Shown here: positions 33,157 to 64,000 of the stretch, piece by piece
Position numbering within the stretch: position 1 is the first letter of the stretch
Layout of the letters: the number at the start of each line of letters is the position of its first letter
Origin: Saccharopolyspora gregorii
GTDB lineage: Bacteria > Actinomycetota > Actinomycetes > Mycobacteriales > Pseudonocardiaceae
Length of the DNA: 64,000 bases
Direction: 5' to 3'
Assembly: GCF_024734405.1 (NCBI RefSeq)
Contig: NZ_CP059556.1
Span: 3,844,001 to 3,908,000, forward strand
Made by a program: the position numbers and the translations under genes
The notes under the pieces: model-generated
Databases searched by the model: none
The model's input: only the letters and a program-made list of their open reading frames with translations
Told to the model about the DNA's origin: nothing

Positions 33157-33188
33157 AGCAGACCATCCCTTATCAACGATCGGCGGGG

Positions 33189-33239: not shown

Positions 33240-33256
33240 GGGGGGACCCGCGGAGA

Positions 33257-34476: not shown

Positions 34477-35490
34477 TCAGCCGACGCGCACGAGGGTCTT
34501 GCCGGTGTTCTTCCCGCCGAGCATGTCCAGGAAGGCCTGCGGGGTGTTCTCGACGCCCTGCACCACGGTCTCCCGGCACCGCACGTCGCCGCGGGCTAGC
34601 CAGCCGCCCATCTCCGCGAGGAACCGGTCCTTGACGTGCTCGTAGTGGCCCACCAGGAATCCGCGCAGCGTGATGCCCTTGCCGATGGCCTGCACCAGGT
34701 TCCGCGGCCCCACCACCTCCCCGCGCTCGTTGTACTGGGAAATGGCGCCGCACAGCGCGAATCGGGCGCCGGGCCTCGCCAGCAGCAGGGCGGCGTCCAG
34801 GTGGTCGCCGCCGACGTTGTCGAAGTAGACGTCGAACCCGTCCGGGGAGGCCTTGACCAGTTGCTGCCAGATCGGCCCGTCCCGGTAGTCGAAGGCGCGG
34901 TCGAACCCGAGTTCCTCGGTCAGGTAGCGCACCTTCGCCGGGCCGCCCGCCGAGCCGATGACCTTGGCGGCGCCGCGCAGCTTCGCGATCTGACCGACGA
35001 TCGAGCCGACGGTGCCCGCCGCGCCGGAGACGAACACCGTGTCGCCGGGCCGGAACTCGGCGGCTTCGAGCAGTCCGGCGTAGGCGGCGTGGCCGGGCAT
35101 GCCGAGCGCGCCCAGGTACGCCTCGGGCGGGGTGGCGGTGGTGTCCACCCGGGTCGCGCCGGCGGCGCCGACCACGGCGTACTCGCGCCAGCCGAGCCCG
35201 TGCAGCACCACGTCACCGGCCGCGAGCTGCGGGGACCGCGACACGAGGACTTCGCCGACCGCACCACCTTCGAGGGGTTTGCCGATCTGGAACGGCGGCA
35301 CGTAGGTGCGCACGTTGTTCATCCGCCCCCGCATGTACGGGTCGACGCTGAGCACCAGGTTGCGCACCAGCACCTGGCCGGGCCCGACGTCGGGCAGGTC
35401 GGCCCGGGCGACGGTGAAGTTCTCGGGGACCGGCATCCCGTCCGGCCGGGAGGCCAGCCGGATCTCGGTTCCCGCGGTCGGCGCGGTCAT
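34477..35490 (-). CDS. NADPH-dependent MDR reductase (CurA/leukotriene-B4 dehydrogenase type)
   Basis: This 337-residue medium-chain reductase lacks the zinc ligands and belongs to the family of bacterial CurA and leukotriene B4 12-hydroxydehydrogenase, which reduce alpha,beta-unsaturated ketones. The N-terminal barrel holds VLVRNLVLSVDPYMRGRM, and the Rossmann motif is SGAAGTVGS. ATG 35490 follows GAGGAGG and lies 15 bp after the AT-PfaD gene, so it is in the polyketide operon. It may saturate one double bond of the product or a precursor. Confidence 0.88.
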   Translation of the reverse strand: MTAPTAGTEIRLASRPDGMPVPENFTVARADLPDVGPGQVLVRNLVLSVDPYMRGRMNNVRTYVPPFQIGKPLEGGAVGEVLVSRSPQLAAGDVVLHGLGWREYAVVGAAGATRVDTTATPPEAYLGALGMPGHAAYAGLLEAAEFRPGDTVFVSGAAGTVGSIVGQIAKLRGAAKVIGSAGGPAKVRYLTEELGFDRAFDYRDGPIWQQLVKASPDGFDVYFDNVGGDHLDAALLLARPGARFALCGAISQYNERGEVVGPRNLVQAIGKGITLRGFLVGHYEHVKDRFLAEMGGWLARGDVRCRETVVQGVENTPQAFLDMLGGKNTGKTLVRVG

Positions 35491-35505
35491 CAGGACCTCC
35501 TCGTA

Positions 35506-37951: not shown

Positions 37952-40900
37952 TCAGCGGCCTCCTTCCGGACCGTACAGCCGGTCGCAGAGCCGCAGCAGC
38001 TTCTCCAGCGAGGCCGGCGCGGTCATCACCTCGGAGTGCATCGAGGTGTCCACGTCGATGGTGAAGAAGTCGTCCAGCCGCTCCGGCCAGCCCAGCCAGT
38101 AGTCCGTTCCGTCCACTGTGGGCAGCGCGTCGTTGGGGAACAGCACCATGTAGTCGCGGAAGGCGCCGAAGAACTCCCGGCTGGCGTTGCGCAGGTAGTA
38201 GCAGCTCAGCCCGTCGGGCTTCGGCAGCGGGTGCAGCTCGTACCGCTCGGCCTGGGTGGCCTCCAGGTAGCGGGACAGCTGGCGCACCCGGGACCGCAGC
38301 TGCGACTCGGTCTTCTTCACTCCGCGCTCCAGCGCCTTCGCGATCAGCGAGTCCAGGAACGCCGGGCCGTCGAGCGTCGTGTCCACCTCGTCCCGGCGCA
38401 GGATCGGCATCCCGCCGCTGTGCGATTCGAAGCTGTTGTTGCCGAGGATCAGGTTCACCGCGCGGAAATCGCTGACCTTCGACACCACCTCGGGGCTGAA
38501 GTCACCGCCGACGATGATCTCGTTGGCCCGGTTGGTGGAGTCCGCGTCGAGGGTGTCGAGCATGACCAGCGTGCGCACCTCGGCGTCGCGCAGCTGCAGC
38601 TGCCGCACCACCTCGTAGGCGAACAGGCCGCCGAGGGAGAAACCGCCGATGTCGTACGGGCCTTCGGGCTGCACCGACATGATCAGGCCCGCGTAGAACT
38701 CGGCCATCGGGATCTGCCCGGTGAGGATCTCGGTGTCGTCGATCCACCCCTTCGGCTGGATCCCGTAGAAGGGGCGCCGGGCGCGGGCGGCGACCGGGGC
38801 GTACGACTCGACGCCACCGTTGCCGTGGTGCACCCAGAAGACCGGACGGCCTGCGGTGACGCCGTTCATCCGGACCAGTTCGGGGAAGTGCGCCGCCGGG
38901 ACCGCTTCGGTGCGCGGGGCCGGGATCAGCGGCGGCGCGGGTTCGGCTTGCGCGGGTTCGACGACCGGGGGTTCGGCCGGCGCGGATTCGGCCTGCGCAC
39001 CGGTGGCGGCGGCGATCGCGGCGGTGACGTCCTCCAGGGTGTCGCAGTCAGCGATCACGTCCAGGGTCAGGCCGGCGTCGATGTGCGTCTGCGCCTGGGT
39101 GAGGAACTGCATCATGAAGATCGAGTCGAAGCCGTAGTCCCGCAGCGGGGCGTCCGGCGGCAGTTCGGCGAAATCGATCTCCAGCAGCGAGGACATCAGG
39201 TCGGCGACGACGGGCGCCAGGTCGGCGGCCGTCGCTCCGGCACCGGTGTCCGGTTCGGGAGCCGTGCCGGGCCCGGAGCCCGCGTCGGGTGCCGGTTCGA
39301 CGGCCCGCGCGGCGGAGGCGTCCTCGGCGGGAACGGCGGTGGAGGCGGGCGCGAACCGCTCCCGCAGCCGCCCGAGGTCCCCGTCCAGCGCGATGACCTG
39401 CGGTACCCGCGCCGCCCACGCGCGGTGCAGCGCGTCGATGCCGACCCGGGCGCGCATCGGGCGCATGCCGACCGATTCGAGCAACGTCACCGTGGAGGCG
39501 TCGCCGCCCATGCCGCCCTTGTCCCACAGCGGCCAGTTCACCACCAGCGTCCGCCCGGACCGCTCGCCGTCGGCCACCAGCCCTTCGCGGTGCGCGGCGT
39601 AGCCGTCCATGAACGCGTTCGCGGCGGCGTAGTCGGCCTGCCCGACGTTGCCGAACGCGGCCATCGAGGAGTAGCCGATGAAGCAGTCCAGTGCGGAGTG
39701 CGCGGTGGCCTCGTCGAGGTGGCGCAGCCCGGTGACCTTCGCGGCGAACACGTCGCGCACGTCGGCGGCGGACTTGCGGGCCAGGAAACCGTCCCGCAGC
39801 ACCCCGGCCGCGTGCAGCACGCCGTGCAGCGCACCGTGCTGGGCTTCGACCTCGCGGACCGCCTGGCGCACCGCGTCCCGGTCGGTGACGTCGAGGGTGC
39901 GGTAGTCGGCCTTCGCCCCGGCCGCGCGCAGCCGCGCCAGCAGGTCCTCCTGGTCGGGCCCGGCGGGGCTGCGGCCGCAGAGCACCAGCGCCGGGGACTG
40001 CACCCGCGCGGCGATCTCCTCGGCGACCAGCGCGCCCAGCCCACCGGCGCCCCCGGTGATCAGGTAGACCCCGCCGTCGCGCCACGGCAGCTCCGGCGCT
40101 GGTTCGGGGATCTCCCGCCACCGCGAGGTGCGGCGGTCGCCGTCGCGATGGCGCACGGCCTCCTGCTCGGTGTCGGCGGCGTCCCGGCGCAGCCGGTCGG
40201 CGAGGTCGGCGGTGCCGGGCCGGTCGCCGAGCTCGATCCACTGGGTGCGCAGCTTCGGGTGCTCCAGGTGCGCGGTGCGCAGCATCCCGCTGAGCCCGCC
40301 GAGCCACGGCGCCTCGGCCGGGGTGACCACCTGGACCAGCCGCGGCGCGGGCTGGCGGGCCTGGTCGCGGATCAGCTCCAGCAGCCGCTGCGCGTAACCG
40401 GTGTAGCGGTCCTCGATGCTCCCGGTGCCCTGCCAGTGCTCGCAGCCGCCGCCGAGCAGCCCGCCGAGCGCGGTGGCGTCGACGTCGGGCAGTTCGCACA
40501 GCACCACGTGGTGGTTGAGCTGATCGGGCGCGTCCGCGGGCGCGGGCGCGCTCCGCCAGGCGGGTTCGAGCAGCAGCGCGGCGTCGGCGGCGGGCTCGAG
40601 CGGCAGCGCGGCGTCGGCGGCAGGCTCGGGCGTCCGCGGCGGCGCCCCGCCCTGCTGCGGCCGGGTGCTGAAGCCGAGCACGCGCACCCGCACCGCGCCG
40701 TCCTCGTCGCACAGGTCGACGTCCAGCCGCCGCACCCCGGAGTCGCGGCGGTCATCGGCGGCGCGGCGCACCACCGCCCACCCGGAGCTCGGAGTGTGGC
40801 CGAGCAGCTGCACCTCGCGCACCGCGAACGGCAGCGCCGCCGCGCCGGGCTCCCCGCTCTGCTCCCCGAGCACCAGGCCGAGCGTCGTCTGCAGCGCCCC

Positions 40901-43900: not shown

Positions 43901-43963
43901 ACCGACTCGGCCCTCGCTGATCAGCAGGTGCAGTTCGTCGAGCGATTCGATCGGGGTGCTCAT
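37952..43963 (-). CDS. Trans-AT polyketide synthase, terminal modules with thioesterase
   Basis: Domain order of this 2003-residue protein is: N-terminal docking helix (1-35), ACP5 (60-140, GLDSL), KS6 (224-655, Cys in ETACSSSL near 392, EAHGTGT, NIGHLE), DH6 (858-1098, DHRVGGTPTLPG and DGALQ intact), KR6 (structural part from about 1110; GGAGGLG near 1300; Ser/Tyr/Asn present), ACP6 (1575-1655, GFDSI) and TE (1695-2003, nucleophile in GFSLGG near 1779). No AT domain is present. ACP5 completes the module begun by KS5-DH5 of the preceding protein. The TE releases the finished chain as acid or lactone. Its ATG overlaps the previous stop (ATGA). Confidence 0.95.
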   Translation of the reverse strand: MSTPIESLDELHLLISEGRVGQDEALRLLRAWKNGAPAIPATAEDPGATGEDRGTAAADSGDLAEQVCEVVVEKVCGLLKVDPTDLDVDVELSEYGLDSLIISQLVNMVNESLGLDLVPTVLFEHPTLRAFSAFVAAEHGPSLAAVFGTAAEPEPVAPQQDLDAVTSPAPQVDRRPPPAAAPPARPAPATVPTVPAAPTGSAPATGPGPAPRPARAVPEPADDPIAIVGISGRFPQADDLDEYWENLRDGRDCIGEVPADRWDWRAHWGDPRQEPGRTNVKHGGFMDGVADFDPLFFGIAPKDAVHMDPQQRLLMLYVWQAIEDAGYAADDLAGSDLGLFVGTNDTGYGLLSDRSAARGRGVTPTGSVPSVGPNRMSYFLDVHGPSEPVETACSSSLVALHRGVAAIQRGECAMAVVGGINTIVVPDGHVSFSRSGMLSEDGRCKTFSAGADGYGRGEGVGMLVLKRLSAAERDGDHVHGLVRATAENHGGRANSLTSPNPKAQAAVIRRAYAKAGIDPRTVGYIEAHGTGTELGDPIEINGLKEAFTELYAGEPVTAAHCGLGSVKTNIGHLELAAGIAGVLKVLLQLRHRTLVRSLHAEEVNPYIDLDGSPFHLVRENQEWAAPRGGDGRELPRRAGVSSFGFGGVNAHVVLEEHVPRAEQPAPAAGPVAIVLSAATPETLEARVRRLAEHLDAGRVAEQDLPNLAYTLQVGRVAMPERIAFLAHSVAEVRKRLATHLAGEKAHGLHRARAERRGPWSELVGDDDIAVAIDSWVAKGKLGRLLKLWVTGFDFDWRRLHTGRSMRRLPLPTYPFRLQRYWIADGVPVPDEPSALPEAAPEPAAAPRRSGGPHRRELHAEDFYLRDHRVGGTPTLPGAAYLEFARDALGADRGVRLRDVTWLRPLAVTDPRSVRVELDPATDRFEVRADESGAVHAQGTALVDPALTGDAEVHDVEALRAICPARHAGAEIYALFDRMGMGYGPAFQPIEELHRGEDLAVARLRLPAAATGSFPLNPSMLDGALQTTLGLVLGEQSGEPGAAALPFAVREVQLLGHTPSSGWAVVRRAADDRRDSGVRRLDVDLCDEDGAVRVRVLGFSTRPQQGGAPPRTPEPAADAALPLEPAADAALLLEPAWRSAPAPADAPDQLNHHVVLCELPDVDATALGGLLGGGCEHWQGTGSIEDRYTGYAQRLLELIRDQARQPAPRLVQVVTPAEAPWLGGLSGMLRTAHLEHPKLRTQWIELGDRPGTADLADRLRRDAADTEQEAVRHRDGDRRTSRWREIPEPAPELPWRDGGVYLITGGAGGLGALVAEEIAARVQSPALVLCGRSPAGPDQEDLLARLRAAGAKADYRTLDVTDRDAVRQAVREVEAQHGALHGVLHAAGVLRDGFLARKSAADVRDVFAAKVTGLRHLDEATAHSALDCFIGYSSMAAFGNVGQADYAAANAFMDGYAAHREGLVADGERSGRTLVVNWPLWDKGGMGGDASTVTLLESVGMRPMRARVGIDALHRAWAARVPQVIALDGDLGRLRERFAPASTAVPAEDASAARAVEPAPDAGSGPGTAPEPDTGAGATAADLAPVVADLMSSLLEIDFAELPPDAPLRDYGFDSIFMMQFLTQAQTHIDAGLTLDVIADCDTLEDVTAAIAAATGAQAESAPAEPPVVEPAQAEPAPPLIPAPRTEAVPAAHFPELVRMNGVTAGRPVFWVHHGNGGVESYAPVAARARRPFYGIQPKGWIDDTEILTGQIPMAEFYAGLIMSVQPEGPYDIGGFSLGGLFAYEVVRQLQLRDAEVRTLVMLDTLDADSTNRANEIIVGGDFSPEVVSKVSDFRAVNLILGNNSFESHSGGMPILRRDEVDTTLDGPAFLDSLIAKALERGVKKTESQLRSRVRQLSRYLEATQAERYELHPLPKPDGLSCYYLRNASREFFGAFRDYMVLFPNDALPTVDGTDYWLGWPERLDDFFTIDVDTSMHSEVMTAPASLEKLLRLCDRLYGPEGGR

Positions 43964-46900
43964 GCGAGGCTCCTCTTGAACTCGTCGGCGCTCAGCGAAC
44001 GCCTGCCGATGGCTTCGATCAGGTCCAGCAGGTGCGCGTCCTCGTCCTGCGGCACCTCCGCGGTGCCGGTGTCCGGGGTGCCGGCGTCCGGGGTGCCGAC
44101 GTCCGAGGTCGCGGCGTCCGAGGTCGCGGCGCCGACCCGGCGGACGCTGAACCCGCGCAGGCGCACGCAGACCTCGCCGTCGTCGTCGCACACGTCGAGG
44201 TCGATGCGGCGGACCTCGCCGCCGTGGTCGTCCTCGGCGAACCGGACCACCGCCCAGCCGGTCTCCGGCGTGGGGCGCAGCACCTCCAGCTCGCGCAGCG
44301 CGTAGGGCAGCGCGGCGCCCGCCGCATCGCCCTGGTCGAGGAACAGGCCGGCGGTGGCCTGCAGCGCGCAGTCGAGCAGGCTCGGGTTGAGCACGAACGC
44401 GGCGTCGCGGGCCGCGGCGGGCAGCACCAGCCGGGCCACCGCCCGGCGCGAACCGGTGTGCAGCGACTCGACGGCGCGCAGCGCGGGGCCGTAGTCCATG
44501 CCGAACCCGTGGTAGCGCTGGTAGCAGGCGTCGGCGTCGAGCACCGGCCCGTCGCAGTCCGCGCGCAGCGCCACCAGGTCCAGCCGCTGCGCCGGGTCCT
44601 GCGGGCGGCGGCGGAGCTGTCCGCGGGCGAACGTGGTGCGCTCCCCCGCTCCGTCGGCCGCGTACACCTCGTAGTCGGCGCCGTCGTCGGCGCGGGCGGT
44701 GAGCGCGACGTGCACCTCGGTCTCGTCCCGGACGGTCAGCGGGCGCAGCCAGGACGCCAGCCGGACCGTCCAGCCCAGCTCCTCGCCGGTGGAGCGGGCC
44801 GCGGCGGCGCGGGCCAGCTCCAGGTGCGCCACCGCCGGCAGCACCGGCACCGCGGCCGCGCCGCCTGCGGCGGCGTCGGTGCCGGGCCGCCAGCCGGACA
44901 CCACCGCCATCACCTCGTCGCGGACCCGGTGGTCGTCGAGGAAGAACTCGCGGCCGGTGAAGCGCGAGGTGTAGCGGTGCTCGGCGAGGTCGGAGGTGTT
45001 CGCGTGCACCAGCGGGTGCAGCCGTCGCGGGGCGCCGGCGGCGGGCCGGGTGGTGTCCATCCAGTAGCGCCGCAGCCGGAACGGGTAGGTCGGCAGCGGC
45101 GTCCGGCGCGGCCGCGGACCGGTGTGCAGCCGTGCCCAGTCGATCTCGGCGCCTTCGACCCACAGCCGGACCAGCCGGTCCAAGTCCACTTCGGACATCG
45201 TCGTGGGATCGCCGGATTCCACCGGCGCCTCGGGCGGTTCCGCACCGCGCGCGACCTGTCCGGTGTGGACGTTCGGACGGGTTTCTCCGCGCAGCCAGGC
45301 GGCGATCCCGTCGCGGAGCTCGGCGACGGTGCTCGCCAGCACCGCCAGCCGATCCCGCATCGGGGTGCGCCCGGTCTGCGAGGTGAACGCGACCGAGGGC
45401 AGTTCCGCGTCGGTGCGCCCGTCCAGCGCGGCCAGCCAGTCGGCGGCGTAGCGGCGCAGCACCTCGGGGTGGCTCGCGGAGAGCACCACCGGCAGCGGGC
45501 CGGTCGGCGGCTGCTCGGCGGCCGGGCGCGGCACGTACTCCTCCAGCACCACGTGCGCGTTCACGCCGCCGAAGCCGAACGAGCTCACCCCGGCGCGGCG
45601 CGGCAGGTCCCGGCCGTCGGCGTCGCGCGGCGCGACCCAGTCCTGCCCCTCGCGCACCAGGTAGAACGGGCTGCCGTCCAGGTCCACGTACGGGTTGGCC
45701 TCGGCGCAGCGCACGCCCTGCACGAGCCTGCGGTGCCGCAGCTGGAGCAGCACCTTGATGACCCCGGCCGCGCCCGCGGCGAGCTCCAGGTGCCCGATGT
45801 TCGTCTTCACCGAGCCGACGCCGCAGTGCGGCTCGGCGACCTCGGCGCCCGCGTCGGCGTAGAGCGTGCGGAACGCGGCCTTCAGCCCGTTGACCTCCAC
45901 CGGATCGCCGAGCTTGGTGCCGGTGCCGTGCGCCTCGATGTAACCGACGGTGCGCGGGTCGATCCCGGCCTCGGTGTAGGCGGCGCGCAGCAGCGCGGCC
46001 TGCGCCTTCGGGTTCGGCGCGGTGAGCGAGTTGCCGCGGCCGCCGTGGTTCTCCGCGGTGGCCCTGATCAGCCCGTGGATGTGGTCGCCGTCGCGCTCGG
46101 CGTCGGAGAGCCGCTTAAGCACCAGGAACCCGACGCCCTCACCGCGGGCGTAGCCGTCGGCGTCCGCGCCGAACGTCTTGCACTTGCCGTCGGGGCTGAG
46201 CATCCCGGCCTTGGAGATGCTGATGTGCCCGTCGACGCTGACCATCGTGTTCACGCCGCCCGCGATGGCCAGCGCGGACTTCCCGTCCCGCAGCGCCTGC
46301 ACCGCGCGGTGCATCGCGACCAGCGCGCTGGAGCAGGCGGTGTCCACCGGCTCGCTCGGCCCGTTCAGGTCCAGGAAGTAGCTCATCCGGTTCGGGCCCA
46401 TCGAGGGGGCGGCACCGGTGATGTCGTAGCCCTCGATCATCGGCTGGTAGCGGGTGACCAGCGTGCTGTAGCCGGTGCTGGTGGTGCCTGCGATCAGCGC
46501 GGTGTCGGTGCCCGCCACGTCCGCGGCCGAATATCCGGCGTCCTCCAGCGCCTTCCACACGTGCAGCAGCAGCAGCCGCTGCTGCGGGTCCATCAGCTCC
46601 GCTTCCTTCGGCGAGATGTCGAAGAAGAACGGGTCGAAGTCGCCGACCCCGTCCATGAAGCCGCCTGCGAGGACGTTCGTGCTGTTCGGGTCCTTGATCG
46701 GGTCGCCGTAGTGCTCGCGCCAGTCCCAGCGGTCGGCGGGGACCTCGCCGGTGCAGTCGCGGCCGTCGCGCAGGTTCTCCCAGTACCGGTCGAGGTCGTC
46801 GGCCATCGGGAACCGGCCGCTCATGCCGATGACGGCGATCGGCTCGGGCACCGGGCGCGCGGTGGCGGCGGATTCGGCGAGCGGTGCCGGTTCCGGTTCC

Positions 46901-55900: not shown

Positions 55901-58900
55901 TCGTCCCGCATCCCGGCCAGCGCGGCCGGGTCGGCGGCGTCCGCGGACAGGTACTCGGGGGCGCGGCCACCGGCGGCGACCTGCGCGGCCTTCGCCCGGA
56001 TCGAGTCGTCCTCGGCGCGGCGCCCCACCCACACGACGCGGGCGTCGTGGGTGCGCAGCAGGTACTCGGTGAGCATGACCCCGAGGTCGCCGGCGCCGCC
56101 GATGAGCACGTACACGCCGCCCCGGCGCAGCACCGGCTCCGCCGGTGCCGGGACGTCCGCCACCGGCAGCAGCTGCCTGCGCAGGTACTGGCCGCCGCGG
56201 CGGGCGAACGGGTGGGCCCGGCGGTCGGCGGGCAGCGCGAACACCTCGGCCGGGACGAACGGTTCGCCGTCGGCGAGGTCCACGGCGCGCAGCCGCCAGT
56301 GCGGCTGCTCCTTCGCCAGCCCGCCGAGCAGCCCGTGCAGCCCGGCCTGCGCCGGGTCGGCCGTGCCGGTGCCCTCCGGGTCGAAGGCGTCGCGGGTGAG
56401 CAGGGTGAGCCCGAGCGGCTCGTCGTCCAGGCCGAGCGCGGTGATCGCGCGCAGCACCCGGAACAGCCGCCGGGTCGCGGTGCGCTGCTCGGCGATCTGC
56501 CCGGCCGCGTCCGCCGCGATCCGGGTAGGGAACCGCATGATCACGTGGTCGACGGGGGTGCTGATCCGGTCCGCGTCGTCGGCCGCGAGCTCCACCAGCC
56601 GGGGGTGCTGCTCGCGCAGCGCGGCGAGTTCGGCGGCGTCGAGGCCGATGGCGATCAGCCGCGCGTCCCGGGCCGGGAACGGCTTGCCGCGCAGCAGGCG
56701 GGCCGGTTCCCACGCGGGGTGCAGGGTGAGGTCGCCCGCGGGGATCTCGTGGGGTTTCGCGGGCGGGATGGCCGAGCTCGGGGTGGCGGAGTTCGGGGTG
56801 GCCGAGCTCGGAGTGGCGGAGTTCGGGGTGGCGGAGTTCGGGGCGGCGGAGTTCGGGGCGGCGGAGTTCGGGGCGGTCACCTCGGCACCGGTGGCCGCAG
56901 CGGGCAGCGCCCGGCTCCGGCTCTGGCTCTGGTTCTGGGCCGAGCCGACCTCCGCGCGCACCACCGGGTTCGCGGGCAGTTCCCCGAGCCCGTCGGTGTA
57001 CCAGTACTTCTCCCGCGCGAACGGGTAGCCGGGCAGCCCGACCTTGCGCGGACGGGGCCCGTCGGCGTGCAGCCGCGCCCAGTCCACGGGCAGCCCACCG
57101 GCCCACGCCTCGGCCAGCGGTGCGAGCTTCCCGCGCCGCACCCAGCGCAGCACGGTCTCCTGGAAGTCCTCGTCGGCGAGGAAGCCCTGCGCGGCACCGG
57201 TCTCGCCGTCGCGCACGTGCCCGCCCGGGGGCATCCCGCCGCGCGCGCAGGTGTCCAACGCCTCGATCAGCGAGTGCAGGTCCCGCACCACCACGGCGAA
57301 CCGGGCGCGCATCGTCTCCCGGCCGACCTGCAAGGTGTAGGCGAGGTCGGCGAGGTCGGCGTCGGACCACTCCCCCGCGCGCAGCGCGTCCCGCAACCGG
57401 CCGGCGGATTCCCGCAGCCGCTCCGGGTCGGCGGCCGAGAGGACCACCACGACCGGTTCCACGGCACGCGGCGCCGGCTCGGGAGCGAGGTGTTCTTCGA
57501 CGATCAGGTGCGCGTTGGCGCCGCCCGCGCCGAACGCGGAGAGCCCGGCCAGCCGCGGTGCGTCGCCGTCGCGCTCCCACGGTGCGGCCTCGCGCTGCAG
57601 CACGAACGGGGTCCGCGGGAAGTCGATGTCCGGGTTGGTGCGCTCGGCGTGCAGCGAGGGCACCAGGGTGCCGTGGCGCAGCTGCAGCAGCAGCTTGCTC
57701 AGGCCCGCGATCCCGGCGGCCGACTCCAGGTGCCCGATGTTGGACTTGGCGGAGCCGATGGCGCAGAACTCGCGGTCGTCGGTGAACTCGGCGAACGCGG
57801 CGGAGAGCCCGGCGATCTCGATCGGGTCGCCCAGCGAGGTGCCGGTGCCGTGCGCCTCCAGGTAACCGATGCGGCGCGGGTCCACATCGGACTCGCGCCA
57901 GGCGCGGCGGATCACCGCGGCCTGCGCGTTCGGGTTCGGCACGGTGAAGCCGTGGGTGTGCCCGCCGTGGTTGACGGCGCTGCCGCGGATCACGCCGAGC
58001 ACCCGGTCCCCGTCGGCGAGCGCGTCGGCCAGCGGCCGCAGCAGCACGGCACCGACGCCCTCGCCGGGCACGTAGCCGTCACCGCCTTCGCCGAAGCTGC
58101 GGCAGCGCCCGTCGCTCGCCGCGAACCGGCTCTCGCCGATCATCAGGTACTTGCTCGGGTGCAGCGACAGGTTCACGCCCCCGGCCAGCGCCACCCCGCA
58201 CTCCCCGCGTTCCAGCGCGGCGATGGCCAGGTGGATCGCGGTGAGCGACGAGGCGCACATGGTGTCGACGGCGATGCTCGGGCCGCCCGCGTCGAAGAAG
58301 TACGAGACGTGGTTGGCGATGGAGGCGAGGCTGCCGGGCACCACCACCGGGTCGCCCAGCGCGGTCCGCTCGGCGCCGTGCAGCTGGTACTCGGAGTACA
58401 TGGCACCGACGAACACGCCCACGTCCCCGGCGTCGGCGCCCACCCGCGCCCGGGCCGCGGCGCGCAGCGCGTCGCGGGTGTAGCCGGCGTCCTCCAGCGC
58501 CGAGTACGCGGTCTGCAGGAACAGCCGCTCCTGCGGGTCCATCGTGGACGCCGCCTTCGGGGAGATGCCGAAGAACAGCGGGTCGAACTCGTCGACGCCG
58601 TCCAGGAAACCGCCCCACTTGGCGTAGGTCTTGCCGGGCACGCCGGGCCGCTCGTCGAAGTAGCGGTCGTGGTCCCAGCGGTCCACCGGGATCTCGGTGA
58701 TGCCGTCCCGGCCGGCGAGCAGGTTCGCCCAGAACTCGTCGAGGTCGCGGGCTCCCGGGTAGCGCCCGGCCATGCCGACGACGGCGATGGCGGTGCCGTG
58801 CTCGGCGGGCACCGGCTCGGCGGCGGCCGGAGCGGCGGCGAGCGAGGTGACGACGGGCGACGTGGCGGTGGCCGGGCTCGCGGTGCCCGAAGTCGCAGCG

Positions 58901-61900
58901 GCCGGACTCACGGTGGCCGGGCTCGTGGTGGCCGGGCTCGTGGTGGCCGGGCTCGTGGTGGCCGGGCTCGCAGCGGCCGGACTCGCGGTGTCGGCCGGTG
59001 CCTGGACGGCCGCGGCCGCCGGTTCCTCCTCCGCGGACACCCCGACGAGCGCGGCCAGCGCCGCCGGCTGGGTGCGCAGGAAGTGCGCCACCAGCCCGTC
59101 CACGTCGCGGACCTCGAAGAACAGCGTGCTGCCCACCCCGTCGAGCACCCGCCGCACCGCGTCGGTCAACTGCACCACCAGGATGGAGTCGATGCCGTAG
59201 CGGTCGAAGGACACGTCGGAGCGGATGTCGGAGACGGGCAGCTGCAGCGTCTCGGCGACCAGTCCCCGGAAGTAGTCGGCGGCGGCATCCCGCACTCTCC
59301 GCTCACCATCCACATCGGACGAACGAGTTTCCGCCGCCACTGCGGGGTTTTCGACCGGTTCGGGCGCGGCTGCCGAGCGCCCCGGTGCCGCGTCGGCCAG
59401 CACCCCGCGGAACGCGGAGCTCTCGCGCGGCTGGCGCACCACGCCGTCGCTCTCCGCCACGATCACCTGCTGGCCGAGGTCGTCGGCCCCCTCGGCGCCG
59501 ACGAACGCGCCGCGGAACCCGACCTCGGCCAGCAGCCGCGTCCAGTTCCGCGGGGACAGCCCGGGGGATCCGGCGATGCGCGGCGCCGGGTCGTCGTAGA
59601 GCCACCAGCCGTCCAGCAGCCCGAACGTGAGGTGGCTGAACACGATGTTGTCGGACAGCTCGTTGAGCAGCAGCACCCCGTTCGGCCGGGCCGCGGCCTT
59701 CGCGTTGCGCAGCGTGTTCCGGATGTTGCGGGTCGCGTGCAGCACGTTGGTGGCGATGACCACGTCGAACTGGCCGGGGTCGGTGTCCTGGCCGGCGAGC
59801 GGCTGCTCCGCGTTGAAGATCCGGCCGTCCAGGTAGGGCGCGATCGGGCCGTAGGTCTTCTTGGCGTGCAGCAGGAACGCCTTCGAGATGTCGGTGTAGC
59901 GGTAGGTCTCGACGTGCTCGGCCCACGGCCGCAACCGGCGGAACACGACGGCGCTGGTGCCGCCGGTACCGGCCCCGATCTCCAGGATGCGCAGCCGCGC
60001 GCCGGGGTCCTGCTCCAGCCGCCGCCGCAGGTAGTCGACGAGGGTGTCGGCGAGCACGTCGTTGAAGTGGTCGGCGACCGGGTTGTTCTTGTACACGGCC
60101 TCGACGAGGTGCAGCGAGGTGCCGGGGAACATCACGTCGGTGGCGGGGCGGCGCCCGGTGAGGACGTCCGGCAGCGCCCGCAGCGTGGTGTCCACCAGCA
60201 CCGCCTGGGCGCGCTTGGCGTCCTCGGCGAGCCAGCGGTCCTTGTCCCGGTCCCAGTTCGCCCAGGCCGCGTCCAGGTCGACGGGGCGGCCGTCGGTGCG
60301 GGCGTAGCGGCCGTCGCCGTCGTGGCGCAGGTGCCCGGATTCGGTGAGCACGGTGAGGCTGTGCTCCATCCACCGCTGGTAGCGGTCCTGCACGCCGCCG
60401 ACAGCGCGCCATTCGGCGGCGGTGGCGGCGCGGTCCTCGGCGAACAGCCCGAGCGAGCGCAGCAGCGCCCAGGTGATCCGCACCAGCGCGTCGTGCATCG
60501 ACCCGGCGTGCCCGTCGGCGCCCGCCCGCAGCCGCGCCACCTCGTCGCGCCGGTCGGGCCTGTCCTCGCGCAGGGCCTCGATCAGCGACGGGGTGGTGGC
60601 GGGCAGGTGGGTCAGCGCGTCCGCGGAGTAGCGGCCGTCGATGCTGCGGGTGTCGGTGGCCTTGAGCAGCGCCAGCTGCGGGTGCGGGGAGGCCAGCAGC
60701 GCGTCGAACGCGGCCATCCCCTCCTCGGGTTCGATGGAGCCGAGCCCGAGCTGCGCCATCCGCTGCCGGTAGCCGTCGGCGGTGACGATGCCGACGCCCG
60801 CCCAGTAGCCCCAGTTCAGCACCTTCACCGGGCAGCCCAGGCGCTCCTGGAGCGTTTCGGCGCAGGCGTCGGCGAAGGTGCAGCCCGCCGCGTAGTTCGC
60901 CTGGCCGGGCGCCTTGAAGAACGCCTGCATCGAGGAGAAGAACGCGGCGAACCGCAGCGGCTGACCCGCGAACACCTCGGCGAGGTTGACCGTCACGTCG
61001 GCCTTGGCGGCGAAGGTGGTGCGGAACCGCTCCTCGTCCATCCGGGCGAGGGTCTGGTCGCCGAGGACGATCGCCGAGTGCAGCACCCCGGTGATGGGGC
61101 CGTGCCTGCGCACGATCTCGTCGCGGGCGCGGGCGAGCGCGTCCCGGTCGGTGGCGTCGGCCCGCACGTAGTCGGGGCGCGGGCCGTGCGCGGCGAGTTC
61201 GTCCTGCTTGGCGGTGATCTCGGCGTCCTGCGGGCGGCGGCCGAGCCACACGACCTGCGTGCCGTGGTGGCGCAGCAGGTGCTCGGTCCACACCTGGCCG
61301 ATGCCGCCCGCGCCGCCGATGGCGACGACGACGCCGCCGGGCCGCGGGGGCGCGGCGGTGGTGCCGGGCGCGGGAACTTCGAGCAGGCGCTGGCGGTACC
61401 ACTCGCCGTGCCGGTGCGCGAGGGTTTCGCCGTTCGGGTCGGCAGGCAGCGCGCGCACCTCCGACCACGGCACCGGTCCGTCGAGGTCGGCGCCCCGGAC
61501 CTGCCAGTGCGGGTACTCCTTGGCGAGGGTGCCGAGGAGCCCGTGCACCCCGGCCTGCGCCGGATCGGATCCGGTGTCGCCGGGCAGCAGCCGCGCACGC
61601 CGGGTGAGCGCGGTGAGGCCGAGCCCTCGGGCGTCGGCGCCTCCGGCCAGCAGCGCCTTGACCAGGCGGAACAGCGCTACCGGTGCCTCCTCGGGCCGGT
61701 CGGTCGCCGGGGCGGTCCAGTACACGTGCTCGACCTCGGCGGGCAGCAGTCCGGTGAGCTGCTCGACGGTCGCGTCGGCGGGGACGTCGAGGACGGTGGC
61801 GCCCGGGTGGTGGCGGCGCAGCTCCGCCTGCTCCTCGGGGGTGCCACCGGCGAGCACCACCCGGGCCTGCGGCGCCGGCCAGAGCGGCGCGTCCTCGTCC

Positions 61901-64000
61901 GCGGGCAGCGCGTCCCAGGCCGGGGCGAGCAGCGTGGCGAGGGGTTCCTCCGCACCGGTCACCTGGCGGGAGGCGTAGCCGCGCAGGCTGGCGCTGAGCC
62001 GGCCGCCGTCGTCGTAGAGATCGATGTCCACTTTGGTCACGTCCCGGTCGGGGGCGGGCTCGTAGCCCGCGGTGTGGCGCAGGTGTGCCCACATGCGCGC
62101 GGTGGTGGGGGTGAAGAGGTCGACGTGCTCCAGCGCGAACGGCAGCGCGGGGGCGCCGCGGCGTTCGGCAAGCGCGCCGGTGGCGTCGCCGTGCAGGCCG
62201 ACGACGGCTTGGACGGCGCCGTCCAGCATCGCCGGGTGCAGCGCGAACTCGCCGGGATCACCGGTGTCCGCGGGCAGTTCCAGCCGGGCCAGCACCTCAC
62301 CGTCCCCTATGGACAGACCTTGCACGGCGCGCAGCCGGTCGCCGTGCCGGATGCCGACGGCCTCCAGCGCGTCGTGGCACTGCTGCCGGGTGAGGGTGCG
62401 GCGGGAGCAGCGGGCGCGCAGCACGTCGAGGGATTCCGGTTGCGCGGCGGCGGGTTCCGCGATGCGCCCCTGGGCGTGCACCTCGGTGCCGTCGCGCAGC
62501 ACCCGGAACGCGTCGCCGTCGAGGCGCACCGCCAGTTCCGCGCCGCCGTCGGCGACGGGGAACGGCGCGGGCCACACCACGTCGCGCAGCCGCAGCGGGG
62601 CGGTGCGGTCGCCGGTGATGGCGCGGTGCGCGAACTCCAGCGAGAGCACACCCGGCAGCACGGCCCGGCCGTTGACGTGGTGGTCGGCGAGGAAGAACTC
62701 GTCGCCGGTGAGCCGGGTGCAGTAGGCGGGGTTCACCGGGGCGGTGACCTCCGCGGTCCGGGCGGTGGCCTGCGCGCTCCGCGGTGCCACGGGCACGGCG
62801 ACGGCCCGCTCCGCCGGGGCGGTGGCGGCGGGTGCGCCGAAGCCCGTCGCGGCCGGCCGTTCGATCCAGTACCGCTGCCGCTCGAACGGGTAGGTCGGCA
62901 GCGGCATCTGGCGGCGCGCGGCGGACGGGAAGCTCGCGGAGAACCGGTCCACCTCGCCGCGCACGTACGCCCACGCGAGCCCCTGCGGGGCGAGCGCGCG
63001 GTCCCCGTCGGCGGGCCGCGGATCGGCGGCGGTCTCCCCCACCAGCACCTCGGTCCCGGCGGTCCCGTCGAGCCAGCCGCGCAACCGCTCGGCCAGCGCG
63101 GGCAGGTCGGCGGCGGTCGTGGCCAGCCGGTGCGGGAAGTGCGCGCGCCCGGCGGCGAGGCTGTGCGCGACGGCTCCGGCCGGCAGGCCCGGCTCCCGGT
63201 CGAGGTGTGCGAGCAGCCGCCGCACCACCTCGCGCAGCGCGGTCGGAGTGCGCGCCGAGAGCAGGAACGCGTGCTCGCCGGGGGTGACGGCGACCGGTGC
63301 GCCGCGGTGCTCCTCCAGCACCACGTGCGCGTTGGTGCCGCTGGCGCCGAACGAGCTCACCGCGGCGCGGCGCGGCCCTGACGGGGGTTCCGGCCAGTCG
63401 CGGGTGTGCCGGTCGATGCGGAACGGGCCGCCGTCGAGGGCGAGCGCCGCGTTCGGCTCGCCGAAGCCGGGCCAGCCGGGGATCCGCCGGTGCCGCAGCG
63501 CCAGCAGCGACTTCAGCACCCCGGCGATCCCGGCGGCGAACTGGGTGTGGCCCAGGTTGTTCTTGATGGTGCCCAGCGAGGCCGATCCGGCGGGGGCGCC
63601 GGCGAAGGCGCGGGTGAGCGCGCGGAACTCGATGGGGTCGCCGAGCTGGGTGCCGGTACCGTGCGCCTCCACCAGCTGGATGCCGCCGGGTTCGATCCCG
63701 GCCTCGGCGTGCACCTCGCGCAGCAGCCGCTCCTGGGAGGCGGCGCTGGGCGCGGTGAGGCCGTTGGTGGTGCCGTCCTGGTTGATGCCGGTGGCGCGGA
63801 TCAGCCCGTACACGTGGTCGCCGTCGCGTTCGGCGTCGGCGAGCCGCTTCAGCAGCACCGCGCCCGCGCCCTCCCCGGGCACGAACCCGTCGGCGCGGGC
63901 GTCGAAGCCGTGGCAGCGCCCGGTCGGCGACAGCATCCCGGCGCGGCTCGCCGAGCGGTACAGCCGCGGCGTCGTCTGCACGAACACGCCACCGGAGATC
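43960..64000 (-). CDS. Trans-AT polyketide synthase megasynthase (5' partial)
   Basis: This frame is open to the right edge, which cuts inside KS1; at least 6,675 residues are visible. Approximate residues counted from 63987: KS1 (to 228), DH1 420-675, KR1 760-1110, cMT1 1180-1505, ACP1 1565-1640; KS2 1730-2167, KR2 2480-2840, cMT2 2880-3235, ACP2 3265-3340; KS3 3410-3827, ACP3 3985-4065; KS4 4172-4583, DH4 4755-5008, KR4 5050-5480, ACP4a 5490-5575, ACP4b 5595-5670; KS5 5715-6150, DH5 6340-6620, C-terminal docking helix. KS2-KS5 have intact Cys-His-His sets. Both methyltransferases show LEIGAGTGGT. No AT lies after any KS. ACP4a lacks its carrier Ser and DH4/DH5 are atypical. Confidence 0.95.
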   Translation of the reverse strand, partial: ISGGVFVQTTPRLYRSASRAGMLSPTGRCHGFDARADGFVPGEGAGAVLLKRLADAERDGDHVYGLIRATGINQDGTTNGLTAPSAASQERLLREVHAEAGIEPGGIQLVEAHGTGTQLGDPIEFRALTRAFAGAPAGSASLGTIKNNLGHTQFAAGIAGVLKSLLALRHRRIPGWPGFGEPNAALALDGGPFRIDRHTRDWPEPPSGPRRAAVSSFGASGTNAHVVLEEHRGAPVAVTPGEHAFLLSARTPTALREVVRRLLAHLDREPGLPAGAVAHSLAAGRAHFPHRLATTAADLPALAERLRGWLDGTAGTEVLVGETAADPRPADGDRALAPQGLAWAYVRGEVDRFSASFPSAARRQMPLPTYPFERQRYWIERPAATGFGAPAATAPAERAVAVPVAPRSAQATARTAEVTAPVNPAYCTRLTGDEFFLADHHVNGRAVLPGVLSLEFAHRAITGDRTAPLRLRDVVWPAPFPVADGGAELAVRLDGDAFRVLRDGTEVHAQGRIAEPAAAQPESLDVLRARCSRRTLTRQQCHDALEAVGIRHGDRLRAVQGLSIGDGEVLARLELPADTGDPGEFALHPAMLDGAVQAVVGLHGDATGALAERRGAPALPFALEHVDLFTPTTARMWAHLRHTAGYEPAPDRDVTKVDIDLYDDGGRLSASLRGYASRQVTGAEEPLATLLAPAWDALPADEDAPLWPAPQARVVLAGGTPEEQAELRRHHPGATVLDVPADATVEQLTGLLPAEVEHVYWTAPATDRPEEAPVALFRLVKALLAGGADARGLGLTALTRRARLLPGDTGSDPAQAGVHGLLGTLAKEYPHWQVRGADLDGPVPWSEVRALPADPNGETLAHRHGEWYRQRLLEVPAPGTTAAPPRPGGVVVAIGGAGGIGQVWTEHLLRHHGTQVVWLGRRPQDAEITAKQDELAAHGPRPDYVRADATDRDALARARDEIVRRHGPITGVLHSAIVLGDQTLARMDEERFRTTFAAKADVTVNLAEVFAGQPLRFAAFFSSMQAFFKAPGQANYAAGCTFADACAETLQERLGCPVKVLNWGYWAGVGIVTADGYRQRMAQLGLGSIEPEEGMAAFDALLASPHPQLALLKATDTRSIDGRYSADALTHLPATTPSLIEALREDRPDRRDEVARLRAGADGHAGSMHDALVRITWALLRSLGLFAEDRAATAAEWRAVGGVQDRYQRWMEHSLTVLTESGHLRHDGDGRYARTDGRPVDLDAAWANWDRDKDRWLAEDAKRAQAVLVDTTLRALPDVLTGRRPATDVMFPGTSLHLVEAVYKNNPVADHFNDVLADTLVDYLRRRLEQDPGARLRILEIGAGTGGTSAVVFRRLRPWAEHVETYRYTDISKAFLLHAKKTYGPIAPYLDGRIFNAEQPLAGQDTDPGQFDVVIATNVLHATRNIRNTLRNAKAAARPNGVLLLNELSDNIVFSHLTFGLLDGWWLYDDPAPRIAGSPGLSPRNWTRLLAEVGFRGAFVGAEGADDLGQQVIVAESDGVVRQPRESSAFRGVLADAAPGRSAAAPEPVENPAVAAETRSSDVDGERRVRDAAADYFRGLVAETLQLPVSDIRSDVSFDRYGIDSILVVQLTDAVRRVLDGVGSTLFFEVRDVDGLVAHFLRTQPAALAALVGVSAEEEPAAAAVQAPADTASPAAASPATTSPATTSPATTSPATVSPAAATSGTASPATATSPVVTSLAAAPAAAEPVPAEHGTAIAVVGMAGRYPGARDLDEFWANLLAGRDGITEIPVDRWDHDRYFDERPGVPGKTYAKWGGFLDGVDEFDPLFFGISPKAASTMDPQERLFLQTAYSALEDAGYTRDALRAAARARVGADAGDVGVFVGAMYSEYQLHGAERTALGDPVVVPGSLASIANHVSYFFDAGGPSIAVDTMCASSLTAIHLAIAALERGECGVALAGGVNLSLHPSKYLMIGESRFAASDGRCRSFGEGGDGYVPGEGVGAVLLRPLADALADGDRVLGVIRGSAVNHGGHTHGFTVPNPNAQAAVIRRAWRESDVDPRRIGYLEAHGTGTSLGDPIEIAGLSAAFAEFTDDREFCAIGSAKSNIGHLESAAGIAGLSKLLLQLRHGTLVPSLHAERTNPDIDFPRTPFVLQREAAPWERDGDAPRLAGLSAFGAGGANAHLIVEEHLAPEPAPRAVEPVVVVLSAADPERLRESAGRLRDALRAGEWSDADLADLAYTLQVGRETMRARFAVVVRDLHSLIEALDTCARGGMPPGGHVRDGETGAAQGFLADEDFQETVLRWVRRGKLAPLAEAWAGGLPVDWARLHADGPRPRKVGLPGYPFAREKYWYTDGLGELPANPVVRAEVGSAQNQSQSRSRALPAAATGAEVTAPNSAAPNSAAPNSATPNSATPSSATPNSATPSSAIPPAKPHEIPAGDLTLHPAWEPARLLRGKPFPARDARLIAIGLDAAELAALREQHPRLVELAADDADRISTPVDHVIMRFPTRIAADAAGQIAEQRTATRRLFRVLRAITALGLDDEPLGLTLLTRDAFDPEGTGTADPAQAGLHGLLGGLAKEQPHWRLRAVDLADGEPFVPAEVFALPADRRAHPFARRGGQYLRRQLLPVADVPAPAEPVLRRGGVYVLIGGAGDLGVMLTEYLLRTHDARVVWVGRRAEDDSIRAKAAQVAAGGRAPEYLSADAADPAALAGMRDEVLRRHGRIDGVVHLAMVFSHTPLAEMTESELDATLGAKVDPCVHFADVFAGHRLDFLLLISSLVSFIRNANQAHYSAACAFEDARAAELRKALGFPVKVVNWGYWGNVPDELLRDVTAMGLAPIDAATAMGAIERLLAGPLDQIGFMRLGRPLPVEGALTGEVLEQHPASPIGTVEPAPVALPAALAEHHAGPVPGEVDAALSRCVAAELRAAGLDPAGDLVARQALDARFDGWLTATLRTLTEHGLIDAAGNWVPGTEDAAAARADWQREAPRWAELNADLRAPLRLLERTLPALGDVLRGRTTATDVLFPQGSFDLVAGVYRDNRVAEHFNAVLAEQVVAHLRARLAADPATPLRVLEIGAGTGGTTGPVLDAVERSGIRLAEYCYTDLSQAFLHNAQDTFGPGRDFLGYRLFDAATAPQEQGLDTGAYDVVIAANVLHATENIRPALRHAKALLRGGGLLALNEISGFYLVNHLTFGLLDGWWLYDDAELRAPGSPALSPESWRRVLHQEGFTGLAHPAADALALGQQIVVAHSDGLARGPREVRPAVPAPAAAAPPVVERSATTVIDVVLAALAEALRMPAERIGLEQAFADYGLDSIVGAKFVQRLNEELGVDLLTTVIFDHRSVSQLAEHIAAEHAPELPARSEPAASAPEPAVRAAEPAAAADLAARAAGSAAAAASAPHAATTPASAPHAAAPETIRAAPAPRSGGAREPIAIVGISGRFAGSPDLDALWGHLAAGDDLVGPIERWDLSDVDDLDCRAGSFLDGIDEFDASFFNLTGIEATYTDPQQRLLLEQAWAALENAGHASAELSGRRCGVYVGCTGGDYADRFDEAPPAQAAWGNAPSVVPGRVAYHLNLHGPAIAVDTACSSSLVAVHLACQGLWAGETELALAGGVSVTTTPGTQLAAGRGGMLSPTGRCHTFDAAADGFVPGEGVGVVVLRRLSDALADGDHVHAVIRGSAVNQDGATNGITAPSALSQERLIRQVHEDFGIDPAEIGVIEAHGTGTQLGDPLECQALSAAFAGAPGPIALGSIKTNLGHTTSAAGVAGLLKLVLSLRHRQIPASLHFHELNPAIRLDGGPFRVNTELRPWLPNSRGRRTAGLSGFGFSGTNGHLVVEDVPAPTRGDAGGTHLFVLSAPQQAPLRQRVADLRAHLELAPEAVLGDVARTLAQGRDHFAHRVAFVAADRESLLRQLAAWLNGAPVAGDPGHEAVRERYLSGAAVDFAPLFAGLDVRRTPLPAYPFQRKSYWASGEPPKRASRGTAAAAPTPATARPALDEASLRYLVGERVLGELSRVLMMEPDEIDPQASFSDFGVDSILSVKLVRAVNAALGVDLPSTALFEHSSLERLVAHLLDAHAVALRDSLAESEEHALNSLPANGFDVSAAESEVAGRTNGSAGNGSSSNGHGTGGFAGNGTCSNGHGTNGAAPSGTSPNGHDAGGVVENGAADGPRPAKSTSDSAGNPQQDEPIAVIGLAARFAQSPDAEALWRHLAAGDDLVGDVTRWDLTAELGPDGARQQGSFVEDADRFDAWFFRMSGKEAACTDPQQRLFLEECWHALEDAGHAGERLDGSGCGVYVGGPPSDYQQLLGDDAPPQALWGNISSVIASRISYFLDLQGPAISVDTACSSSLVAIHQACQDLRQRNTSMALAGGVFVQSTPIFYRSAVRANMLSTRGRCHTFDSRADGFVPGEGAGVVVLKRLSDALRDGDHVRGVIRGSGVNQDGTTNGLTAPSAGSQERLLRRVYERTGIDPASVQLVEAHGTGTPLGDPIEFAALRAVFGDAPAAGTALGSIKTNVGHTQFAAGVAGVLKALLALEHEKLPPTLHFDEVNPEIRLDGGPFYVNTELRPWLKPATGPRRAAVSSFGAAGTNVHAVLEQAPPRPAGHAERPAWLVVLSGQDEEVRRSQVERLLAHAEQHPELDLGDVSYSLATGRRHCAHRWAAVVADRAQLISALREWLRAGTAEQVVTGTTADGHRRRDPAGPARVDGLLRDGSRPALIELAEFFAQGLDFRFAPLFADGGFRITPLPPYPFAGERYWPGTSRVARSPLAGDAVELTGREFFLADHRVRSVPVLPGVAYLESAVQAARAAGVEHPRLRNVVWSRPLQVAEPVRLRTALREQGGGHTFEISTAAGKHGQGLVEAGPAEPGGHLDVAALRAACARRVEHTEFYAHFDRMGIGYGPAFRGVQELHVGDGLVVARLRLPHAARDGAGWALHPAMLDAAVQATLGLSLTGSGEVAAALPFVLEDVRVHAPSPSAGYAVVRPAAADGGGAVRRMDVELCDEDGAVCVRLLGFTARVLPAEDAGTAGAAENSGTTDATGMADATGMDDATGMAEATGIAGASGIGDSADPAERGNPAATPEPTLVHVGWRPEPATATTGAPARREVLLAGAGVDPRALQDQLGVRCAALPHADDLAERFTAQAESVLARLRAAISALRDGPVLLQVVVPAAGAGRISAALAGLLRTARLEHPKLRTQLVEVATPLGVADLAALLRAEAATDAVVVRRDGEHREVPRWSALDDAPEVAPWRAGGTYLITGGAGGLGATFARAIAARAPGARLVLAGRSAQGPAELLRELADAGAHPSYRPLDVADRAQVERCVRGVLAEHGALHGVLHLAGVLRDGYLARKDPAEVREVLAAKATGFANLDAATAEVDLEVFCGFSSLSAFGNAGQGDYAAANAFLDAYAGHREELRARGARRGRTLVVGWPLWATGGMGVDDATAARMRAEVGMVPMRPEQGVTALHRAWGSGEPHVLAICGDRARIEATLLSGPETVAAERDPDRASLLAELVGHAAAVLGVRADEIDPDVELADYGFDRVSLTALAGRVEAAHGGTVAPKSFIERPTLGAVVDHLLEDHEFGSLNPPARREPDAPADTGGTVRKALVWELIERVAVLLDVPAKRITADAELTRFGFDSLTLTGFADELNAAYGLSLAPTLFFEHPTLGEVADHLLAEHAEQVAPAPEPAPAPRPEPEPAREPAPAPEPEPAPLAESAATARPVPEPIAVIGMSGRFPMADDLDRYWENLRDGRDCTGEVPADRWDWREHYGDPIKDPNSTNVLAGGFMDGVGDFDPFFFDISPKEAELMDPQQRLLLLHVWKALEDAGYSAADVAGTDTALIAGTTSTGYSTLVTRYQPMIEGYDITGAAPSMGPNRMSYFLDLNGPSEPVDTACSSALVAMHRAVQALRDGKSALAIAGGVNTMVSVDGHISISKAGMLSPDGKCKTFGADADGYARGEGVGFLVLKRLSDAERDGDHIHGLIRATAENHGGRGNSLTAPNPKAQAALLRAAYTEAGIDPRTVGYIEAHGTGTKLGDPVEVNGLKAAFRTLYADAGAEVAEPHCGVGSVKTNIGHLELAAGAAGVIKVLLQLRHRRLVQGVRCAEANPYVDLDGSPFYLVREGQDWVAPRDADGRDLPRRAGVSSFGFGGVNAHVVLEEYVPRPAAEQPPTGPLPVVLSASHPEVLRRYAADWLAALDGRTDAELPSVAFTSQTGRTPMRDRLAVLASTVAELRDGIAAWLRGETRPNVHTGQVARGAEPPEAPVESGDPTTMSEVDLDRLVRLWVEGAEIDWARLHTGPRPRRTPLPTYPFRLRRYWMDTTRPAAGAPRRLHPLVHANTSDLAEHRYTSRFTGREFFLDDHRVRDEVMAVVSGWRPGTDAAAGGAAAVPVLPAVAHLELARAAAARSTGEELGWTVRLASWLRPLTVRDETEVHVALTARADDGADYEVYAADGAGERTTFARGQLRRRPQDPAQRLDLVALRADCDGPVLDADACYQRYHGFGMDYGPALRAVESLHTGSRRAVARLVLPAAARDAAFVLNPSLLDCALQATAGLFLDQGDAAGAALPYALRELEVLRPTPETGWAVVRFAEDDHGGEVRRIDLDVCDDDGEVCVRLRGFSVRRVGAATSDAATSDVGTPDAGTPDTGTAEVPQDEDAHLLDLIEAIGRRSLSADEFKRSLA
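44070..44135. repeat. 15-bp tandem repeat in PKS C-terminal linker
   Basis: About four in-frame units of 5 codons encode TSDAA/TSDVG/TPDAG/TPDTG between DH5 and the C-terminal docking helix. The region is low-complexity and acidic, probably flexible. Confidence 0.7.
48832..48930. repeat. 18-bp tandem repeat between DH4 and KR4
   Basis: Units of six codons encode ATGMAD, ATGMDD, ATGMAE, ATGIAG and ASGIGD, based on a GTGGCGTCGGCCATCCCC-like DNA unit on the plus strand. It lies in the linker before the KR structural subdomain. Confidence 0.7.
56768..56880. repeat. 15-bp tandem repeat after KS2
   Basis: About seven in-frame units, nearly identical in DNA (GAGTTCGGGGTGGCG-like on the plus strand), encode repeats of SAAPN, SATPN and SATPS. 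They form a flexible linker between the post-KS2 region and KR2. Confidence 0.8.
58870..58985. repeat. 15-bp tandem repeat between ACP1 and KS2
   Basis: Three perfect copies and further degenerate copies of GCCGGGCTCGTGGTG (plus strand) encode SPATT, SPATV and SPAAA repeats. It is the inter-module linker of the polyketide synthase. Confidence 0.8.

Follow-up and report, generated by a model that had tools for sequence, protein, structure and literature searches.

A gene cluster in Saccharopolyspora gregorii predicted to encode an iso-migrastatin-type glutarimide macrolide

INTRODUCTION

Iso-migrastatin-type glutarimide macrolides block eukaryotic protein synthesis. The tailoring set that defines the iso-migrastatin cluster (mgs) of Streptomyces platensis NRRL 18993 consists of a reductase, an O-methyltransferase, and a P450 (MgsI, MgsJ, and MgsK), and the lactimidomycin cluster (ltm) of Streptomyces amphibiosporus has a P450 (LtmK) as its only known tailoring gene. 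In the lactimidomycin branch, the C-17 hydroxyl is kept and the P450 is a desaturase.

The literature excerpts cited here define glutarimide clusters by an acyltransferase (AT), an acyl carrier protein (ACP), and an asparagine synthetase homolog for the malonamyl starter, with a seven-domain block, KS-DH-KR-ACP-KS-B-ACP, as their hallmark (PMC10574677, PMC7756379). Starter loading is assigned to the MgsH-type AT, Streptomyces lines seem to use a single methyltransferase domain for two positions, and non-linear programming is common in the family (PMC7756379). An AT-TEII didomain protein, LtmB/MgsB, is called "the only known example" (PMC11775670). As excerpted, the migrastatin polyketide synthase (PKS) has its first six modules in common with that of secimide, followed by four more (PMC7930024). 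A cycloheximide-like cluster is mentioned for Saccharopolyspora flava (PMC4853412).

RESULTS

Location and boundaries of the cluster

The window, a 64,000-nucleotide stretch of S. gregorii DNA, corresponds to G000:C1:3844001-3908000 of a single 6.34 Mb contig. The cluster spans G000:C1:3875942-3926108, about 50 kb, starting at window position 31942 and running past the window end. Its genes are transcribed in the order AT-TE, ACP, amidotransferase, PKS1, PKS2, PKS3, AT-ER, MDR reductase, methyltransferase, and P450, so that the window carries only the downstream part of the line, with the starter genes upstream, beyond position 64000. Start codons were picked by codon score, and they may be in error by some residues. 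The original prediction, a trans-AT assembly line in an actinomycete, was right about the synthase genes; it left out the AT-ER, reductase, methyltransferase, and P450 genes, with which the cluster continues to 31942. The actinomycete host agrees with a GC content of 71-78% in 4 kb steps and with the 19 plasmid records that matched a flanking 24 kb (13 from Streptomyces, 2 from Pseudonocardia, and 1 from Nonomuraea, besides 2 from Rhizobium and 1 from Paracoccus).

Between an SNF2-helicase gene and a PNPOx gene lie 53.3 kb in S. gregorii and 56.5 kb in its sister species G003, but only 1.5 kb in congener G004 and 3.9 kb in G005, where the ~50 kb block is absent. The nearly empty site in these two congeners indicates that the cluster is a discrete block, present in two of the six genus members. 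No helicase match was found in congeners G001 and G002 at an E-value cut-off of 1e-100.

Several other features were noted around the cluster and elsewhere in the genome. A Cas7-like (Cas_CT1975) gene adjoins the cluster (G000 3927360-3928469; L002:1360-2469), with a 67% match in G003 and a weak match containing one stop in G005; no CRISPR array was found beside it in the first 9 kb of stretch L002. At window positions 22451-24313, a 620 aa protein combines an Hsp70 domain with a C-terminal Exop_C galactose-binding-like domain; we know of no precedent for this combination. ABC importer genes at window positions 25556-29217, adjoined by an LLM-type oxidoreductase gene, had F420-0 transporter subunits as their best NCBIfam models, all below the cut-offs. 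A very large cis-AT PKS region, with many KS and AT matches and open frames of up to 7356 aa, lies at G000:C1:1832072-1908833.

Architecture of the synthase

The complete line has 10 KS domains, four of which lie entirely beyond position 64000. Within the window, profile searches recovered the domain counts and order originally read from the sequence: 6 KS, 4 DH, 4 KR, 2 C-methyltransferase (cMT), 7 ACP, and 1 TE, with the first of these KS domains (KS5) truncated by the window end. None of the 21 PF00698 AT matches in the genome falls within the synthase (3881952-3922181), and the trans-AT assignment therefore holds; two matches adjoin the synthase, one at each end (3881162-3881938 and 3925392-3926096).

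PKS1 (3217 aa) has the order KS1-DH-KR-ACP-KS2-B-ACP-KS3. The MgsF-like PKS2 (8175 aa in full; minus strand, window 43960..64000 and on to window position 68487, G000 3912487) reads KR-ACP-KS4-ACP-KS5-DH-KR-cMT-ACP-KS6-KR-cMT-ACP-KS7-ACP-KS8-DH-KR-ACP-ACP-KS9-DH in profile searches, the window holding the part from the partial KS5 to the end. Its modules in the window, all on the minus strand and placed by profile search, are those of KS5 (KS-DH-KR-cMT-ACP, its KS cut by the window end, 58795..64000), KS6 (KS-KR-cMT-ACP, 53755..58794), KS7 (KS-ACP only, 51481..53754), and KS8 (KS-DH-KR-ACP-ACP, 46849..51480), followed by a KS9 half-module (KS-DH, 43960..46848) that is completed by the ACP opening PKS3. 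The MgsG-like PKS3 (2003 aa, minus strand, 37952..43963) was resolved by profile search as ACP-KS10-DH-KR-ACP-TE, and its gene overlaps that of PKS2, also on the minus strand, by 4 bases at 43960-43963. The line is not fully collinear: KS7 and KS9 lack a KR, and there is no ER in cis. Each of the three PKS genes forms one open frame, and the KS cysteine is kept in 10 of 10 KS domains.

Motif reading revealed departures from consensus late in the line. The first ACP of the tandem in the KS8 module has GFDRV in place of GxDS, without the phosphopantetheine serine, in both S. gregorii and G003. DH motifs are altered in the KS8 and KS9 modules, and in the latter an insertion lies inside the HxxxGxxxxP motif in the same two species.

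Starter genes and branching module

Following the sequence past 64000, as the original prediction had proposed, led to the loading genes and then to PKS1. Directly upstream of the synthase are genes for an AT-TE protein of 514 aa, an ACP of 84 aa, and an asparagine-synthase-type amidotransferase of 655 aa (PF00733, 1.1e-70). S. gregorii thus has the trans-AT, the discrete ACP, and the asparagine synthetase homolog that define glutarimide clusters, with both AT-TE and AT-ER present. The AT-TE combines PF00698 and PF00975 in one protein with two GHSLG motifs and resembles MgsB/LtmB by domain make-up.

The first seven domains of the line, KS-DH-KR-ACP-KS-B-ACP, are those of the glutarimide hallmark. 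The KS2 module matched the RhiE chains 4kc5 and 8oii, the latter titled as the KSB domain of RhiE, across residues 3-674. No Pfam match was found over the B region in the profile search, and "B" was assigned from its position and its similarity to RhiE. This region is 57-71% conserved in six other clusters.

Two further motif variants were seen in the first ketosynthases. In KS2 (L006:6508-9597), HGSAT and N(V/I)AH replace HGTGT and NIGH in all seven glutarimide clusters counted (S. gregorii, G003, G151, G156, G257, G133, and G1076), possibly a mark of Michael-branching ketosynthases. KS1 carries the motif ETHGPGT in S. gregorii and G003.

Positional match to solved iso-migrastatin ketosynthases

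KS3 had MgsE KS3 of S. platensis (4qyr) as its best solved match by sequence, with 456 of 601 positions identical. KS4 matched MgsF KS4 (4zdn) at 391 of 520 positions in the first of two aligned stretches, and KS6 matched MgsF KS6 (4tkt) at 479 of 614 alignment columns, giving 75-78% identity for the three pairs. The chains 4zdn and 4tkt were the best single-KS chains for KS4 and KS6; the two-KS chain 7zma gathered more total bits but less per domain. A structure model of KS6 built from 30 sequences (pLDDT 90.8) returned 4tkt at rank 1 in Foldseek with 77% identity, with titles naming S. platensis isomigrastatin MgsF KS6, MgsF KS4, and MgsE KS3. An earlier model from 5 sequences (pLDDT 50.4) was discarded.

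KS position thus agrees with Mgs at three of three comparable positions out of 10 KS, and in both lines the break between the first and second subunits falls between KS3 and KS4. With modules counted per KS, the 10 KS fit the ten-module migrastatin line. The original prediction had left the product unassigned and the domain order unrecognized; this did not survive, as mgs of S. platensis proved a near-identical characterized cluster at the three comparable KS positions and, by domain make-up, in the AT-TEII didomain.

The tailoring block

Downstream of PKS3, four minus-strand genes occupy window positions 31942-37950. The AT-ER (814 aa, 35506..37950) joins a trans-acting AT (PF00698, 4.7e-35) to a PfaD-type enoyl reductase (TIGR02814 pfaD_fam, 593 bits against a cut-off of 449). 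It is followed by an MDR-type NAD(P)H reductase (337 aa, 34477..35490, PF16884/PF00107), whose best NCBIfam model was a CurA-type reductase with a score below the model cut-off, then by a SAM-dependent methyltransferase (273 aa, 33257..34078, PF08241 2.8e-28, DVGCGLG motif) and a cytochrome P450 (404 aa, 31942..33156, PF00067 1.7e-30, heme motif FGYGPHQCLG). We take these four to be MgsH/MgsI/MgsJ/MgsK-like. The block is common to S. gregorii, G003, and G1076, three of the seven clusters examined, with identities to G003 and G1076, respectively, of 85% and 68% for the reductase, 92% and 76% for the methyltransferase, and 90% and 73% for the P450. The set of reductase, methyltransferase, and P450 is that of mgs, and the P450-only pattern of lactimidomycin type was not seen. 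On the tailoring roles that we take these enzymes to have, their presence fits iso-migrastatin rather than lactimidomycin.

Relatives in other genomes

Relatives were sought by searching with the B region, and in the family, order, and Streptomyces sets the scoring covered five first-look candidates per genome. Matches occurred in three of six genomes of the genus and in 11 of 390 of the family (six at 57% or more, S. gregorii included). A sample of 397 genomes from the order gave six matches, and the two that reached at least 57% were already among the family ones. A sample of 392 Streptomyces genomes gave 24, with G1076 reaching 60% and the others 29-44%. The amidotransferase was 86% identical in G003, 78% in G1076, and 72-73% in G133, G151, G156, and G257, and in each of the five family clusters it precedes the B region by ~6-7 kb. 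A contig scan added six relatives at only 41-45% identity, including three Streptomyces genomes (G708-G710). The G708-G710 loci were set aside as other trans-AT loci, since their amidotransferase matches did not exceed 41% identity, compared with 72-86% for the five family clusters. All six contig-scan loci served solely as alignment rows.

Each of the 10 S. gregorii KS domains best matched its positional counterpart in all four uncut clusters, and the cut clusters agreed where comparable. Gene and domain order in G003 is identical, tailoring genes included, with PKS1-3 each 76-77% identical. The G1076 cluster, in the Streptomyces group, is on two contigs that cover the line apart from KS7-KS9; it agrees wherever sequence is available and has the reductase, methyltransferase, and P450 in the same order as S. 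gregorii. Its KS3 and KS4 scored 1074.8 and 1058.2 bits against 4qyr and 4zdn, compared with 963 and 928.9 bits for S. gregorii, which places G1076 nearer to mgs.

As far as KS9-DH, the lines of G151, G156, G133 (two contigs), and G257 follow that of S. gregorii with one difference, the lack of a detected ACP after KS7. Their last module has an extra C-methyltransferase domain, which is weak and split in G257. The available stretches beside these lines gave no reductase match, G257 extending only ~2.4 kb past the end of its PKS genes. Methyltransferase matches at 40-45% and P450 matches at about 30% occurred in G151, G156, and G133. The ACPs matched in the four clusters have the serine lacking in S. 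gregorii, some of these matches possibly being to the second ACP, and none has the insertion in the KS9-module DH. These four lines probably represent a different product branch, judging from their domains and flanking genes.

DISCUSSION

The gene and domain order, the positional identity of KS3, KS4, and KS6, the AT-TE didomain, and the tailoring block common with two other clusters are observed, and from them we infer every chemical step and the product. Taken together, they make it highly probable that the locus is a complete cluster for an iso-migrastatin-type glutarimide macrolide, a pathway type already characterized. That the product is iso-migrastatin itself, rather than another congener, is favored with more modest confidence. 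We first considered that the locus might make some other kind of orphan trans-AT product, a reading given up on finding the amidotransferase, the RhiE-like branching module, and the AT-TE didomain.

In the proposed pathway, a trans-AT would load malonyl onto the discrete ACP, and the amidotransferase would convert it to malonamyl-ACP. The PKS1 module KS1-DH-KR-ACP would extend this starter, after which the branching module KS2-B-ACP would add a malonyl unit by vinylogous Michael addition and close the glutarimide ring, with B-domain catalysis putative. KS3 at the end of PKS1, together with KR-ACP at the start of PKS2, is predicted to yield a beta-hydroxyl, KS4-ACP a retained ketone, and the KS5 module a trisubstituted alkene; the methyltransferase of this module probably acts on the preceding unit as well. 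The KS6 module would set an alpha-methyl beta-hydroxyl that becomes the lactone oxygen, KS7-ACP would rely on trans enzymes, KS8 would give an alkene, and KS9-DH with the ACP of PKS3 would give a reduced unit, aided by the AT-ER protein. The KS10 module would form the terminal enoyl and the TE would macrolactonize the chain, and the reductase, methyltransferase, and P450 may then tailor the released product. This module logic fits the 12-membered iso-migrastatin/lactimidomycin core; the carbon-by-carbon assignment presumes the structures of these two compounds as we take them to be.

The three alternatives we weighed all keep some of this framework. The same synthase could serve a cluster of the lactimidomycin branch, and mgs and ltm are indeed excerpted as close relatives with the AT-TEII didomain in common, the likeness to ltm being one of description (PMC11775670, PMC4853412). 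The S. gregorii cluster nevertheless has a reductase and a methyltransferase gene between those for AT-ER and the P450, where ltm would presumably have the P450 only, and we consider a lactimidomycin-type product unlikely. A product on the iso-migrastatin scaffold with another oxidation or methylation pattern is possible, if doubtful. Such a congener would accord with the limited identity to mgs at the three KS domains compared, and with a serine-less ACP and an interrupted KS9-module DH that G003 has too and that are unseen in the G151, G156, G133, and G257 matches; yet G003 has the same order of domains and the same tailoring genes, and the G1076 fragments fit both.

The serine-less ACP and the altered DH motifs of the KS8 and KS9 modules could also be read as signs of a silent or decayed cluster with no product. 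Against this stand the intact reading frames of the three PKS genes and the full set of KS cysteines, and the same oddities recur in the sister species despite its divergence at the protein level, which suggests selection rather than decay; a cluster without a product seems quite improbable. A bolder reading, less likely than not, is that the genus Saccharopolyspora produces a novel congener of iso-migrastatin whose form reflects the KS8-module ACP without a serine and the interrupted KS9-module DH. On the same reading, the products of G151, G156, G133, and G257 would form another branch, possibly not yet described, with a 2-methyl macrolide core: in these lines the last module carries one more C-methyltransferase domain, and no reductase gene was found.

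In the excerpted descriptions, mgs has in common with this cluster the glutarimide starter genes, AT-TEII, the seven-domain first block, and TE release, and to these we add the KS3, KS4, and KS6 positions and, presumably for mgs, the AT-ER with the reductase, methyltransferase, and P450. The two differ in genus and family, and about one quarter of residues differ at the three KS domains compared. The cycloheximide and 9-methylstreptimidone clusters (chx and smd) have starter genes and five modules that are described as conserved family-wide (PMC4853412), but they have five modules against ten KS here. Gladiostatin/gladiofungin of Burkholderia gladioli is excerpted as sharing the starter genes and opening with the same seven domains (PMC7756379); an AfsA-like domain releases the chain there, whereas a TE would do so here, and later modules differ. 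An iso-migrastatin cluster of the same predicted class outside Streptomyces, likened by description and as a prediction only, has been mentioned for the Lentzea type strain BCCO 10_0061 (PMC11092160). The S. gregorii locus is an iso-migrastatin-type cluster in a bacterium outside Streptomyces, where such clusters have already been mentioned in print. Among the literature matches listed for migrastatin in Pseudonocardiaceae, isomigrastatin in four genera (the first 15 of 44), and glutarimides in Amycolatopsis, titles and abstract openings name no characterized product from such clusters.

The cluster leaves the known mechanism unchanged. What it would give is a product class for an orphan assembly line, placing eukaryotic translation inhibitors in another bacterial family and in a single-contig genome. 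The sister species with the cluster and the two congeners with a nearly empty site form a clean natural comparison, and the family relatives with an extra methyltransferase domain offer a ready set on last-module editing of a ten-KS line.
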